A DNA stretch of 57,338 nt, taken from positions 1 through 57,338 of the IMG/VR virus record IMGVR_UViG_3300050343_000082. The stretch is one strand, 5' to 3'. Source of the stretch: a virus. The notes below the pieces were generated by a model. That model did not search any database. It saw nothing but the letters and a program-made list of their open reading frames with translations, and was not told the DNA's origin. Position 1 is the first letter of the stretch. Every line of letters begins with the position of its first letter. The translations under genes and the position numbers were made by a program. Below, in pieces: positions 10,451 to 42,992 of this stretch.

Positions 10451-11175
10451 TTATGCCGTGTTCTTTATATGCCCAACCTCTTGTTGAATCTACATACACT
10501 AATGTAAAAGCTTGGCCGTTAGTGGTTAGTGTTAGATTAGATGTGCCTGTATTAATAGGCTGACCGTTTCTATTTAGTATTAAATTGTTAGAGTTAAATG
10601 TTCCTCTTGCATCGATAAATGTAATTTCATCTCCTGTAGCAGGTGATGTAGGAAGTGTAATTGTAATTGGGTTAGCTGTTGTATTTGCAAAAATTTGTTC
10701 ACCAGCAGATGCTGTGTAAGCAGTTAGTGTATGAAGAGTTTACTGTTATGTAACCTTTAGTTTTCATACCAAGATTAACATTAGTTCCATCTGAATAAAC
10801 TAATACAGTTGCACCTGAAGGAAAATACTCCTGATCCAGATACAGTTTTAACTGTAAAGTTGTTTATACTTCCAGAACTTTCTCTAGTAGTTGCATCTTG
10901 AAATACCAAAACTCTTTCAGCAGAGTCTGGAATAGTAACTGTTCTGTTTGCTGTTAAGTTCCTGTTAATTTAATATATATGTTTTTACCATTTGATGTTG
11001 CACCATTATCTAGTGCTAATGCTACGTCTCCACCACCTACAGCTAATGATAAATAACCTGTAGATAATTGTTCTAAAATTTGTAAGTTTGTATTAGTAAT
11101 TGTACCCCAAAGACCTGCTTTTTCACCGGTAGTAATTAATTCTAATTTTGAGTTTGTTGAATAACTTGATGCCAT
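10451..11175 (-). CDS. tail-fibre-like or baseplate-type structural protein (frameshifted)
   Basis: Begins MASSYSTNSKLELITTGEKA, then GLWGTITNTNLQILEQ; an in-frame upstream ATG exists but this one is the better start. The frame breaks near 10960 and again near 10740-10830; fragments such as TVTIPDSAERVLVFQDATT and ITLPTSPATGDEITFIDARG lead to a stop near 10451. About 240 residues, Thr/Ser/Gly-rich beta sequence of the kind common in phage tail appendages. The end is uncertain because one frame runs on into the next gene. Confidence 0.65.
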
Positions 11176-11182
11176 AATTCTC

Positions 11183-35845: not shown

Positions 35846-37325
35846 TAATAGTAATTCCTTTTACGTTGCTCTTGTGGTTCATCCACATAGTCTTCAGGGT
35901 GTTGTAATAATCCTGCCTGCCTGAATCGCATAATCGCTTGTGTTGTACTATCTACAAGGTCGTCATGATCGCCATACGGAAACGCAGCGCATTCTTCAAT
36001 GACTTCATCTGCAAATTTCTGTTCTGGTGCCCATATCATACCAGATTCGAACAAAGGTGCAACCGCATTTACACGTGAATGTTTATCGTTTCCACGTGAT
36101 GGGGTAAAGTTTACAACCGGTATATCCATTTGTCTAACTCATATGTTAGTGGTAAACCTGATGCTTTTGCTTCAACTATAACAGATTCTGGTTGCCAATA
36201 CTTATATTGCTCTAATGCAAGTCTACGTAATTCAGGAAACTCATATCTACCTTTTATAGAATCAAGGAGCATAAGATTGGCCCCTGAGTCTTGGTCCGGG
36301 TAAAATACACCCCAAGTAGTAATCGCAGAATAGTCTGCAGTTTCTTTTTTTAAAAATGCTGTATCATAAGATTGTATGACGTGATGTAATTCTGGTATCC
36401 AATCGTGTTCCCAAGTTCTCCACCACTCACGTTTTATAATTGCACCTTCATCTGAAGTTGGGTTTTGCATCCACTGTGCATTCCATTTGCCCGTGGGCAG
36501 TGTTGCTTGGACTTTTTCTAGCTCATCTAGTTTCCAATACTCAGGCCAAACTGGTTTAGCTTTTTTAGATCCGTGGTCCATGATTGCCGGAAACTCGACC
36601 ACGTGCCACTGATCAGCTTTAGCTTCTTTTTGGTTACCAACTAATTTTCCTGTCAAATCTTTATTAGACCATCGCGTCATAACTAAAACAATTTTACCAC
36701 CAGGTTGTAAACGTTGCCTAGGTCCTGATGTGTACCATTCATAAGCAGACTCCATGGCCGTTGGACTCATTGCATCTTGCTCAGAATGTGGGTCATCAAT
36801 TATTAAAAGATCAGCACCCCGTCCGGTTATTGCACCGCCGACACCAGCTGCAAAATACTCACCACCTTGTGCTGTTTCCCACCTACCAGCGGCTTGCGAA
36901 TCTTCTCTTAGTCTTGTTTCAAATATTTTTCCATACTCGTCACTATCAATCAAGGTCTTAGCCTTACGACCAAATCGTACGGCTAGTTCTCCTGTGTGAG
37001 TTGCTTGGATTATTTTTAACTTAGGGTTACGGCCCACCATCCACGCTGGTAACAAGTAACTTGCAAATTCTGATTTCGTATGACGTGGAGGCATATTTAC
37101 TATCAGTCGATTTATTTCTCCCGATGCAAGTTGATTAAATTTTTTTGCTATGTGTCTGTGGTGAGAGCCTTCTACAAAATCGGGCCACACACATTTGACA
37201 AAGGACATAAAGTCATCTCTGGCTTTACCTTGTATTTGTTTCTCTGCATGCATGACTTGCAGTTTTTTAAATGTCTTTCTGACGTCTGCAGGTAGCTTAC
37301 TAATATCTACGTTATTCAAATTCAT
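35845..37325 (-). CDS. terL: terminase large subunit (one indel near 36120)
   Basis: About 493 residues once the two frames (36111-37325 and 35845-36129) are joined. Walker A-like PPRHTKSE at residues 79-86; Walker B and catalytic acid in LLIIDDPHSEQD near 175-186; coupling motif VLVMTRW near 222. The nuclease domain has SYDTAFLKK (first Asp), ESVIVEAKASG and DHDDLVDSTTQA (last acidic group). This is the Terminase_6 type motor-nuclease that packages DNA through the portal. The gap at 36120 falls between nuclease motifs; as the enzyme is essential, a read error is the likely cause. Confidence 0.93.
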
Positions 37326-37496
37326 AAAATTTTTTAAAAAATTTTTTTATAATTTTTTTGCACCATAAAGTGTTAAAAATGTTTTTACCACCATAAACTG
37401 TCTAAATCAAGCAATACAACCTAGAGTAGTGGGACCCCTTTTTATATAAAGGGTGCATGGGGTCGACGTTAGTTGCAATGTTGGTATTGGATAGGG
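37326..37496 (-). promoter_or_regulatory. leader region of the virion operon
   Basis: 170 bases without a gene. It holds two copies of TTTATGGTG (minus strand), a nested inverted repeat around ACCCTTTATATAAAAAGGGGT, flanked by GACCCC and GGGGTC arms, and a long A/T stretch just before terL. A weak TTGATT-N17-TAAAAA can be drawn. As the first gap before the late genes it is the best candidate for a late promoter; I cannot define the boxes. Confidence 0.4.
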
Positions 37497-38360: not shown

Positions 38361-38547
38361 TAGTGCCTCACTTTCCATGATGTAGTTGCAGTTCTGTAAC
38401 CATGACTATCTAAGTCATAATAAACATAGTAAGGAACACCTTGTTTGATGTGCCATATCTTGACTTGTCGTCATGTTTGCCTTTTCTTGTAATGTGCTTC
38501 TTATGTTTAGAAGCCCAATAAGTTATGTAAAATGTTTTGTTTGTCAT
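38360..38547 (-). CDS. small basic protein (one indel)
   Basis: MTNKTFYITYWASKHKKHIT, then RKGKHDDKS; an indel near 38460 and the restored WHIKQGVPYYVYYDLDSHGY and RTATTSWKVRH follow to 38360. About 62 residues, rich in Tyr/His/Lys. Leader AGAAAGGTATAATATG is shared in style with two other genes here. Unknown function. Confidence 0.6.
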
Positions 38548-40198: not shown

Positions 40199-40231
40199 AC
40201 TTTAGAATGATTCTAAAAATCATTCTAAAGT
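40199..40231. terminator. perfect 14-bp inverted repeat
   Basis: ACTTTAGAATGATT, a 5-base loop CTAAA, AATCATTCTAAAGT. No T-run follows on the plus strand (purine-rich AGAAGAGAAAAAA); on the minus strand the stem is followed by GGCAATTC. An operator or RNA structural element fits as well as a terminator. Confidence 0.5.
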
Positions 40232-40249
40232 AGAAGAGAAAAAAGCGCC

Positions 40250-40270
40250 AAGCCTCAAGCCGCAAGCAGC
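40250..40270. repeat. AAGCNNC array, three copies
   Basis: Units AAGCCTC, AAGCCGC, AAGCAGC in perfect 7-base register, ending two bases before the -35 box TTGACA at 40273. Same unit as the arrays at 40684 and 41568. Confidence 0.8.
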
Positions 40271-40272
40271 GC

Positions 40273-40301
40273 TTGACAATGGCTCAAGGATAATGTAGGA
40301 T
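40273..40301 (+). promoter_or_regulatory. plus-strand promoter beside the heptamer array
   Basis: TTGACA, 17-base spacer, TAGGAT. An AAAGGA ribosome site and ATG follow at 40323. The heptamer array touches its upstream edge, so it may be controlled by a protein that binds the array. Confidence 0.6.
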
Positions 40302-40322
40302 GTATTTAGAAAGGAAAAACAT

Positions 40323-40454
40323 ATGAGTAAAATAAAAATATATGAAGCTGGTGAGCAGCTGAACAGAATAGCAAACGCCCTGGAAGAGATCCTCCGGCTG
40401 GTGAAGGAAGATCAGGAGAGATCTAAAAAAACGGATACATGGAAGAGAGGATGA
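40323..40454 (+). CDS. 43-residue helical protein
   Basis: MSKIKIYEAGEQLNRIANAL, EEILRLVKEDQER, with an AAAGGA site 8 bases upstream. Amphipathic heptads suggest a coiled coil. ATGA overlap to the next gene. Higher G+C and CTG leucine codons than the rest of the window. Unknown. Confidence 0.6.
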   Translation: MSKIKIYEAGEQLNRIANALEEILRLVKEDQERSKKTDTWKRG

Positions 40455-40606
40455 TGACTGATAAAGAAAAAAAACTTGCAGCTCACCTGGCAGCTATGTG
40501 CTGCCAGGCTGACGAAGACTGTCCAGCTGAATACAGGACTGAGCATTTTAGATCCACGATGGATGATGCCTATGACTACCTGAAAGAGATTGGATACTTG
40601 AAATGA
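40451..40606 (+). CDS. 51-residue acidic Cys-containing protein
   Basis: MMTDKEKKLAAHLAAMCCQA then DEDCPAEYRTEHFRSTMDDA. Three Cys near the N-terminus, acidic helix after. Overlaps both neighbours by ATGA. Unknown function. Confidence 0.6.
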   Translation: MMTDKEKKLAAHLAAMCCQADEDCPAEYRTEHFRSTMDDAYDYLKEIGYLK

Positions 40607-40782
40607 GTAGACGACCAGGGCCAGCAATGGCCCGAGTCTTCCTGCAGCATGCGCGCTGGCTCGAGGACCAGGGACCGAGCTACAAGCGACAAGCCTCAAG
40701 CTGCAAGCGACAAGCCGCAAGCTTGACAAGATTAAATTATAATGTTATTGTATCCTATAAACTAAAGGAGAAAGAATTATGA
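40603..40782 (+). CDS. possible small basic protein across a heptamer array
   Basis: MSRRPGPAMARVFLQHARWL then EDQGPSYKRQASSCKRQAA, whose second half is encoded by the 7-bp array and the promoter of the next gene. ATGA overlaps on both sides argue for a gene; the unusual C-terminus argues against. Low certainty. Confidence 0.35.
   Translation: MSRRPGPAMARVFLQHARWLEDQGPSYKRQASSCKRQAASLTRLNYNVIVSYKLKEKEL
40684..40722. repeat. AAGCNNC array, five copies
   Basis: AAGCGAC, AAGCCTC, AAGCTGC, AAGCGAC, AAGCCGC, then AAGC running straight into TTGACA at 40723. Second case of the array fused to a -35 box. Confidence 0.8.
40723..40751 (+). promoter_or_regulatory. plus-strand promoter of the GP88 gene
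   Basis: TTGACA, 17 bases, TATTGT; then an AAAGGAG site and the start at 40779. Sits inside the possible ORF 40603-40782 and next to the heptamer array. Confidence 0.55.
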
Positions 40783-41377
40783 ATACTAAAGAAGCATGGA
40801 CCCTGGTTGGAGGGCTAAGTAAACCGTCAAAGATGCCCGGCTGGGCAATTGGTATACCCGCGCTGAATGCAAGACTGGCAACAAATTAAAATTAATACCT
40901 AACTCAGTTTGTTCAGGCTGTTACGCTGAGAAAGGTTGTTATGTTTTCGCTGTTGTACAAGCCGCTCAATACAAGCGCCTGAAGGCAATAGCTCACCCGC
41001 AATGGGTTGAAGCAATGGCAACACTAATCAACAGCAAAAAGCCTGATGTGTTTAGATGGCACGACAGCGGCGACGTCCAGGACGTGGACCATCTCGAGAA
41101 GATCTTCAAAGTGTGTGAGCTAACACCCAGCAAAAGACACTGGATGCCAACCCGTGAAGCGTGGATCAAGGACCATATGCACAAGGCGCCAGCAAACTTA
41201 GTTGTAAGATTCTCATCACCAATGATTGACCAGGGACCAGTCAAGAGCTGGGCCAATACGTCGACAGTCTCGACGAAGAGTCGAAGCTGTCCAGCCCCTG
41301 ACAACAATAATGAATGCGGCGACTGTCGCGCTTGTTGGGATCCGCTGGTAAAAAATATTGAATATGGTAAACACTAG
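40779..41377 (+). CDS. GP88-family protein (one indel)
   Basis: MNTKEAWTLVGGLSKPSKMP, GWAIGIPA, then an indel near 40865; the restored frame gives CKTGNKLKLIPNSVCSGCYA then EKGCYVF, and the intact 41015-41377 part with FRWHDSGDVQDVDHLEKIFK and a C-terminal Cys cluster CPAPDNNNECGDCRACWD. About 200 residues. The C-x-x-C-Y-A and C-terminal zinc-ribbon-like Cys match Pfam Gene product 88. Biochemical role unknown. G+C is visibly above the window average, a sign of separate origin or strong constraint. Confidence 0.75.
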
Positions 41378-41672
41378 AATGTTTGTATTTAAACATCCAA
41401 AATATTATAAAGAATTACGAGACGCGGGAAACGAGTTAGCGCCGGCCAGCGCTGTTAAAGAAGACCTGACAAGTTCAGGCAGCTCACCCGCACGTAATAA
41501 ATCTGATCAGGTCATTAGCAATGCTGAAGCGACGGCTGCAAGCGAGCGTGCACCTGGTCAGGGCCAAAAGCCTCAAGCAAGCAGCAAGCCACAAGCATCA
41601 AGCTCCAAGCCGCAAGCTTCAAGCACCAAGCTTAGTAAGCCACAAGCCACAAGCTTCAAGCCCCAAGCATAA
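41364..41672 (+). CDS. protein with array-encoded Lys-Pro-Gln-Ala-Ser tail
   Basis: MVNTRMFVFKHPKYYKELRD, AGNELAPASAVKED, then a Ser/Pro-rich linker and KPQASS-type repeats that are simply the 7-bp array in translation. Start 41364 overlaps the GP88 end; 41379 is an alternative. The N-terminal 40 residues look like a real gene, the tail probably disordered. Unknown role. Confidence 0.55.
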   Translation: MVNTRMFVFKHPKYYKELRDAGNELAPASAVKEDLTSSGSSPARNKSDQVISNAEATAASERAPGQGQKPQASSKPQASSSKPQASSTKLSKPQATSFKPQA

Positions 41673-41707
41673 AGGATCAAGCTTCAAGCCACAGGCTTCA
41701 AGCTCCA
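41568..41707. repeat. AAGCNNC array, about 19 copies
   Basis: From 41568, units AAGCCTC, AAGC, AAGCAGC, AAGCCAC, AAGCATC, AAGCTCC, AAGCCGC, AAGCTTC and so on, with few phase breaks, to 41707. It forms the 3' ends of two convergent genes. Not CRISPR: no spacers, and 7-bp period. Confidence 0.85.
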
Positions 41708-41996
41708 TGATACGTGAACCACTGTACATATGAATAAGTTTCTCGGACCTTGGACCAAGGGCCTCTGCTATGATAAATGTATTGTGTGGATGCCTCACAT
41801 GGAAGGCTATTTGGTGTGGAGAGAACCTTATTTTATTCCCCTTACAGACCTTTAATTCTACAGTGAAAAAGTGCCCAGAATTATTATACCCCAATAGATC
41901 GGGAGTACCAAGTAAGCTATTATTTTCCAGTCTAATCCACGAAATATCTTTAATAATTTTTTTAACTTTTGCATATAATTTGGCCTCTGGTTTCAA
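41619..41996 (-). CDS. VRR-NUC family nuclease
   Basis: 125 residues. MKPEAKLYAKVKKIIKDISW, then LLGTPDLLGY (catalytic Asp), FFTVELKVCKGNKIRF (E-x-K) and SPHQIAFHVRH (Q). This is the PD-(D/E)XK order of VRR-NUC enzymes, often Holliday-junction or flap nucleases. The last 30 residues (LEACGLKL... repeats) are the translated heptamer array read on the other strand, so the domain proper ends near 41700. Convergent with the GP88 group. Confidence 0.8.
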   Translation of the reverse strand: MKPEAKLYAKVKKIIKDISWIRLENNSLLGTPDLLGYNNSGHFFTVELKVCKGNKIRFSPHQIAFHVRHPHNTFIIAEALGPRSEKLIHMYSGSRIMELEACGLKLDPLCLGLEACGLWLTKLGA

Positions 41997-42467: not shown

Positions 42468-42992
42468 ATGGGTGTACCAAAAAGATTAACAGAAATGCAA
42501 CAACGATTCGCTGAGTTCTTAGTATTCGGTGGACCGGAAGGACCAATGACTAAACGTGAAGCTGCTATCGCTGCTGGGTACAGTAAGGATAGAGCAATGC
42601 GAGAAGGATCAGAACTAACTAATCCAAAATACTCACCACTTGTTGTAAAATATATTGGTGAACTAAAAGAAGAAAGATTAAGAAAACATGAAGTGACTTA
42701 TGAAGGACACCTGGCTGAACTTGCAAGACTCAGAGAGGCTGCTTTGAAGAAAGGTTCTTTCTCATCTGCGGTAAATGCTGAAGCAAACCGAGGAAAGGCA
42801 GCAGGACTATACATAGACAGAAAAATAATAAAAACTGGGAAACTAGAAGACATGTCAGAACAAGAGTTAGAAGCAAAAATGAAACAAATCTTAGACGACT
42901 ACGGGTCTCTGATAGATGTAACACCTAATGAATCCGAGTTATCTTCTTCACACAAGAAGTTGGAAATACCGACCTCTCCGAAAACGAAATAG
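42468..42992 (+). CDS. terS: terminase small subunit
   Basis: 174 residues. MGVPKRLTEMQQRFAEFLVF, GPMTKREAAIAAGYSKDRAM (helix-turn-helix of Terminase_2 type), then a helical oligomerisation region (ELKEERLRKHEVTYEGHLAE, KKGSFSSAVNAEANRGKAAG) and an acidic tail. TerS recognises phage DNA and loads TerL. It is on the opposite strand and 5 kb away from terL, with its own promoter and probably a leaderless start. Its end overlaps an opposing gene by 68 bases. Confidence 0.8.
   Translation: MGVPKRLTEMQQRFAEFLVFGGPEGPMTKREAAIAAGYSKDRAMREGSELTNPKYSPLVVKYIGELKEERLRKHEVTYEGHLAELARLREAALKKGSFSSAVNAEANRGKAAGLYIDRKIIKTGKLEDMSEQELEAKMKQILDDYGSLIDVTPNESELSSSHKKLEIPTSPKTK

Follow-up and report, generated by a model that had tools for sequence, protein, structure and literature searches.

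Phased arrays of a 7-bp repeat in one gene cassette of pelagiphages as probable operator DNA

The met boxes bound by MetJ are tandem operators of 8-bp palindromic units in a chromosomal regulon, to which a ribbon-helix-helix (RHH) repressor binds cooperatively. Replication iterons are direct repeats with helical phasing. Closest to the DNA described here are the operators and parS sites of omega from pSM19035 (ParB-pSM19035), contiguous non-palindromic 7-bp repeats which are found at several promoters with 7–10 of them per site; one RHH protein binds all the sites cooperatively, with one dimer per heptad and at least two heptads for high affinity (PMC9499535). Omega is paired with a ParA protein and serves in partition. 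The stoperators of mycobacteriophages are bound at promoters and elsewhere by one phage protein, which stops elongation (PMC9283540).

Here we analyse AAGCNNC arrays in a 57,338-base virus record (IMGVR_UViG_3300050343_000082; the whole stretch is called the window), whose nearest named relative is Pelagibacter phage HTVC027P. Like the omega operators, these arrays are contiguous 7-bp non-palindromic repeats that overlap or abut the promoters of several genes. Unlike them, they read AAGCNNC with the core CAAGC instead of the WATCACW consensus, and they keep one orientation throughout, whereas orientations are mixed within an omega site. No omega homologue was found. Since consensus and orientation differ and the binder is represented by candidates only, we do not file the arrays as omega-operator members; by analogy, the best reading is that they work like the heptad operators of pSM19035. 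The arrays share with met boxes the tandem short units at promoters, but their units are 7-bp and asymmetric, and in some relatives (L401, L367 and L420) the spacing of CAAGC is 8 bp. The fit to stoperators and to iterons is poorer. Stoperators, which may offer an analogue for the long array, are scattered through the genome, whereas the arrays described here are contiguous and lie in one cassette; unlike iterons, these arrays accompany promoters and the ends of converging genes, with neither an initiator nor a skew signal.

Three arrays in a plus-strand cassette

Most window genes are carried by the minus strand, and a plus-strand cassette occupies 40.2–41.7 kb with a G+C content of 46% against ~35% elsewhere. 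Direct reading, TRF and pattern search find three AAGCNNC arrays of ~4, 6 and 18–19 units, all on the plus strand (Table 1). The three-unit pattern AAGCNNCAAGCNNCAAGC has 19 matches with at most one mismatch, every one on the plus strand, and 0 in 100 dinucleotide shuffles; exact matches number 15, all forward, and the reversed control pattern gives 0. These results confirm the claim of the earlier note that three arrays share one unit and one orientation, and the first two indeed end 0–2 bases from TTGACA, as it had said. Its extents are corrected here: array 1, given as 3 copies at 40250–40270, is one unit longer, and array 2, given as 5 copies, holds six AAGC units plus a degenerate GAGCTAC unit at 40677 in front (40677..40722 with this unit). 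With its gap of 2, array 1 of the window departs from the usual 7-bp phase. The low-complexity tails KPQASS and LEACGLKL of the two convergent ORFs over array 3 are as described before. For the gene facing array 3, a Pfam search returned no match and thus did not confirm the name VRR-NUC.

Both array promoters score 10/12, with a perfect -35 box and a 17-bp spacer. TTGACA occurs 38 times in the window, and only at promoters 1 and 2 is it preceded by at least two heptads within 16 bp.

Table 1. Arrays, promoters and genes of the window, with the basis of each assignment
Feature	Position	Strand	Basis or remark
Array 1, AAGCNNC x4	40243..40270	+	followed by GC, then TTGACA at 40273 (gap 2)
Promoter 1, TTGACA-17-TAGGAT	40273..40301	+	same element in HTVC027P (L128) and many contigs
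Two small ORFs (43, 55 aa) behind promoter 1	40323..40606	+	first is the HTVC027P gp34 counterpart
59-aa ORF	40603..40782	+	translation; 3' part encodes array 2 and the promoter 2 -35 box
Array 2, six AAGC units, 7-bp steps	40684-40722	+	abuts TTGACA at 40723 (gap 0)
Promoter 2, TTGACA-17-TATTGT	40723..40751	+	-35/-10 scoring
GP88-family gene, HTVC027P gp33 counterpart	40779..41377	+	tblastn 48% over 171 aa
ORF starting MFVFKHPKYYKEL, HTVC027P gp32 counterpart	41379..41672	+	3' part is array 3
Array 3, ~18-19 units, short interruptions	~41569..41703	+	within 3' ends of two convergent ORFs
Convergent ORF (VRR-NUC in the earlier note)	41619..41996	-	translation; tail encoded by array 3
Terminase small subunit (TerS)	42468..42992	+	Terminase_2 E=2.2e-7
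RHH-like protein, 57 aa	45257..45430	-	sequence resembles ribbon-helix-helix; candidate binder
gp36-like small protein fragment	38446..38547	-	candidate binder by co-occurrence

Gp33 of HTVC027P belongs to GP88 (Pfam GP88 E=2.5e-28). Proteins of this family have seven invariant cysteines, including CxxC and CxxCxxC, and the AF2 model of GP88 is alpha/beta (pLDDT 84) with no confident match in the PDB. The frames of GP88 and of the large terminase subunit (TerL, 36111-37346) are broken in the window and intact in relatives, perhaps by assembly indels.

Just 5' of array 1 the window carries a Flavobacterium-1 RNA (RF02976, 40066-40185). Despite the family name, this RNA also lies 5' of array 1 in the cultured SAR11 phage (L128 4347-4467), and one further contig has it (L043 2151-2276) among the ~34 loci scanned; the open-access literature yielded nothing on this RNA. 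The palindrome TTAGAA-N3-TTCTAA (window 40202-40216) occurs 95 times in 1.40 Mb of loci, in some of them directly upstream of array promoters. It resembles the Irr iron-control box. As a common promoter element it was rejected, being present in 12 of 144 promoters only.

Conservation of place and phase, and constraint on the DNA

HTVC027P carries all three arrays at the same places as the window. Three units abut TTGACA before gp34, five abut TTGACA before gp33, and the long array, of 13 units in three blocks, lies in gp32. Three units followed by TTGACA are present in at least 119 viral stretches and, among 84,980 bacterial and archaeal genomes, in 3 stretches (two SAR11 genomes and one Cytophagales MAG); this near-absence from cellular genomes points to a phage factor. 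Two SAR11 records (L130 and L131) carry arrays, and L131 also encodes a phage large terminase, so its arrays are phage DNA within a SAR11 assembly.

In ~197 array loci the gene facing array 3 is found in 150, GP88 in 133 and TerS in 118, in a single order, which indicates that most arrays belong to one phage lineage. As these loci were picked by the repeat, a second sample was picked by GP88 protein alone. It was ranked by similarity to a heptad-type query, hence its counts are no estimate of frequency across all phages. At least three chained units lie within 170 bp 5' of GP88 in 56 of its 75 loci, and 4 more have degenerate ones; the remaining loci have other, mainly coding, sequence in this stretch. 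The distance from array end to TTGACA is 0 bp in 41 of the 56 and 7 or 14 bp in another 9, so that 50/56 keep a 7-bp register. Behind GP88, a long array of 5–18 units is present in 65 of 66 loci. The findings that by the account of the earlier note would refute its reading, namely relatives in which arrays are absent or randomly placed or their spacing to TTGACA varies, were looked for, and the outcome did not refute it.

Within a contig every array lies on one strand (24 of 24 contigs). The arrays of a 60-kb contig are confined to ~1.3 kb, and those of HTVC027P are likewise limited to one cassette, except for one 2-unit match. Chains of at least three units number 1291 at spacing 7 and 5 at spacing 8 in 397 loci, which were mostly chosen for spacing 7; this spacing dominates also in protein-picked loci. 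At least 18 unrelated first genes stand behind array promoters across relatives. Hence, the array promoter and not the gene is the constant part. We found no description of the arrays in the open-access literature, subscription papers being outside the search.

The constraint acts on the DNA. Where array 2 overlaps coding sequence, 68 distinct sequences always use AGC for Ser at codon -8 and AAG for Lys at codon -6 (68/68 each), while all four Ala codons appear at the two Ala positions, where the third base falls on a free N. Between adjacent units the NN pairs agree less often than expected by chance (0.053 and 0.042, with 0.091 and 0.075 expected). Codons fixed at CAAGC and free at NN, together with neighbours that differ more than chance, indicate selection on DNA; the difference between neighbours also led us to reject fresh tandem copies made by slippage as the origin of the arrays. 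Resemblance between units three positions apart is somewhat above chance, suggesting that duplications of 21 bp occurred in some cases.

Some relatives have other repeats at these sites. In the relative 023Pt_psg01, GGGTGGGCCC stands at each of the three homologous places of the cassette, so the sites have changed jointly; such co-change would be expected from a trans factor common to the sites or from gene conversion between them. In 69 loci near the GP88 of 023Pt_psg01, 53 have heptads, 14 have GGG.GGGCCC and 0 have both. In another part of the survey L164 carries both heptads and GGGTGGGCCC; L129 (~2930, 3685 and 4500) and L164 are the loci in which the latter replaces or accompanies heptads at array sites. 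HTVC023P has three 33-bp repeats beside terS (L210 8565-8661) and a similar-looking TTGAGAATAACAACGAAA repeat in the interval between the corresponding genes (L210 ~10990-11180), and in the freshwater phage DSL-LC04 the terS–terL interval contains a degenerate array of CGTGNNC heptads (L211 13080-13310).

Probable operator arrays, their candidate binders and competing explanations

We suggest, with a probability of roughly 60%, that the arrays serve as operators, and that a regulator which binds them cooperatively, and is probably encoded by the phage, times the genes behind them. We infer the protein and its mode of action as follows. A sequence-specific protein would bind the 5-bp core CAAGC every 7 bp. 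Three units make 21 bp, or two helical turns, and the protein would coat the array cooperatively. At two places this coat would end directly at the -35 box, slightly ahead of it or within the part that sigma contacts, and would thereby control a strong host-type promoter, so that the small genes and GP88 behind the array promoters would be timed as a class apart. For the same protein, the long array in the converging 3' ends would be a site of high capacity and, possibly, a transcription roadblock.

Three proteins are candidates for the binder. The RHH-like protein, a candidate by its sequence, is found in 23 of the 25 array loci that are long enough to show it. Its presumed DNA-contacting strand residues vary among heptad phages, overlap those of a non-heptad relative and do not sort with motif type, and the promoter of its gene has no heptads. 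The RHH_1 profile matches 3 of 12 members, below the cut-off. A fold search with the AF2 monomer (pLDDT 75) gave no RHH match, and the PDB profile matches were discarded as unrelated HopQ/megabody chains. The gp36-like protein is a candidate that co-occurs with heptads in 95 of 97 loci, and TerS, whose sequence type tracks that of the array with few exceptions, is the third. A gp35-like protein was rejected, as it is missing in 18 of 97 heptad loci. GP88, which the earlier note had considered as a DNA binder, shows the same conservation whether relatives have heptads or lack them and was dropped as a specific binder; the small proteins at 40323-40606, also proposed there, are unlikely, given that many unrelated families fill this slot.

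TerS is also central to another explanation, in which the arrays are a packaging (pac) site. TerS would bind the direct repeats, above all those of the long array, and any effect on promoters would be secondary. The cassette is flanked by terS and terL, with the long array near terS, and of the TerS proteins that score at least 210 bits 189 of 192 come with at least 8 chained units, against 0 of 11 at scores below 150 bits; profile scores of TerL, GP88 and the exonuclease do not split by array type. Relatives lacking the arrays, moreover, have unusual repeats in this interval (the 33-bp repeat of HTVC023P and CGTGNNC of DSL-LC04). However, a pac site leaves the register with two -35 boxes unexplained, the TerS of L420 scores 228 bits and yet this locus has 8-bp spacing and no heptads, and the TerS profile was built from heptad loci, so that distant clades score low anyway. 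We regard packaging as an unlikely main role. The arrays might instead act in RNA, as repeats at transcript 3' ends that bind a protein or set mRNA ends. Each array does close a plus-strand unit on its 3' side (array 1 after the RNA gene and array 2 after the small ORFs, both followed by a promoter, and array 3 after the GP88 operon), and no intrinsic terminator was found at the convergent junction, but this explanation gives no reason for the -35 register and is in our estimate quite improbable.

It is even harder to credit that we are dealing with tandem repeats of no function, or with linkers for recombination that travelled along with promoters. The highly variable genes between arrays 1 and 2 and the likeness of units three apart would agree with it; the unlikeness of adjacent units, the core letters fixed at synonymous sites and the position and phase kept in nearly all relatives sampled would not. 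Least credible are replication-origin iterons, to which we assign a very small probability. The earlier note had compared the 21-bp phasing with iterons or operators and suggested checking for a replication origin. Direct repeats with three units per two helical turns are indeed present and the operator likeness is supported; the iteron part is not, since two of the three arrays are tied to promoters, the only inflection of GC skew is that of the local strand switch at the cassette, and no initiator gene lies beside the arrays.

The operator reading could be extended, rather doubtfully, to one array-coating protein with two jobs in a lytic virus. The short arrays would time two promoters and the long array would have a genome-level role, such as marking the DNA for packaging or blocking transcription from both sides, while the site would be replaced as a set in sister lineages (7-bp CAAGC, 8-bp CAAGC, GGGTGGGCCC and possibly CGTGNNC).

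Expression timing in HTVC027P

HTVC027P has no RNA polymerase gene and relies on that of its host. In RNA-seq of infected SAR11, gp33 and gp34 are the sole members of ‘extra cluster 2’, high at 6–9 h; the early genes of this phage are, according to the same authors, all of unknown function (PMC12753301). Gp34 and gp33 are the first genes behind the two HTVC027P array promoters, and the chance of any given pair among 87 genes is 1/3741. We note that distinct timing could also arise without a role of the arrays, from the cassette having its own promoters. If the arrays are operators, we favour repression, with RNA polymerase being blocked, over activation: neither -35 box departs from consensus, both spacers measure 17 bp and the expression peak is transient.

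In a cultured phage the arrays are a concrete cis-element, found at just those two genes that make up a temporal class of their own, and the related ocean virus contigs that carry it number well above a hundred. Pelagiphages infect the most abundant bacteria of the ocean, and for a major group of them gene timing can now be tested in cultures that already exist, with the array DNA at hand as bait in the search for the regulator.
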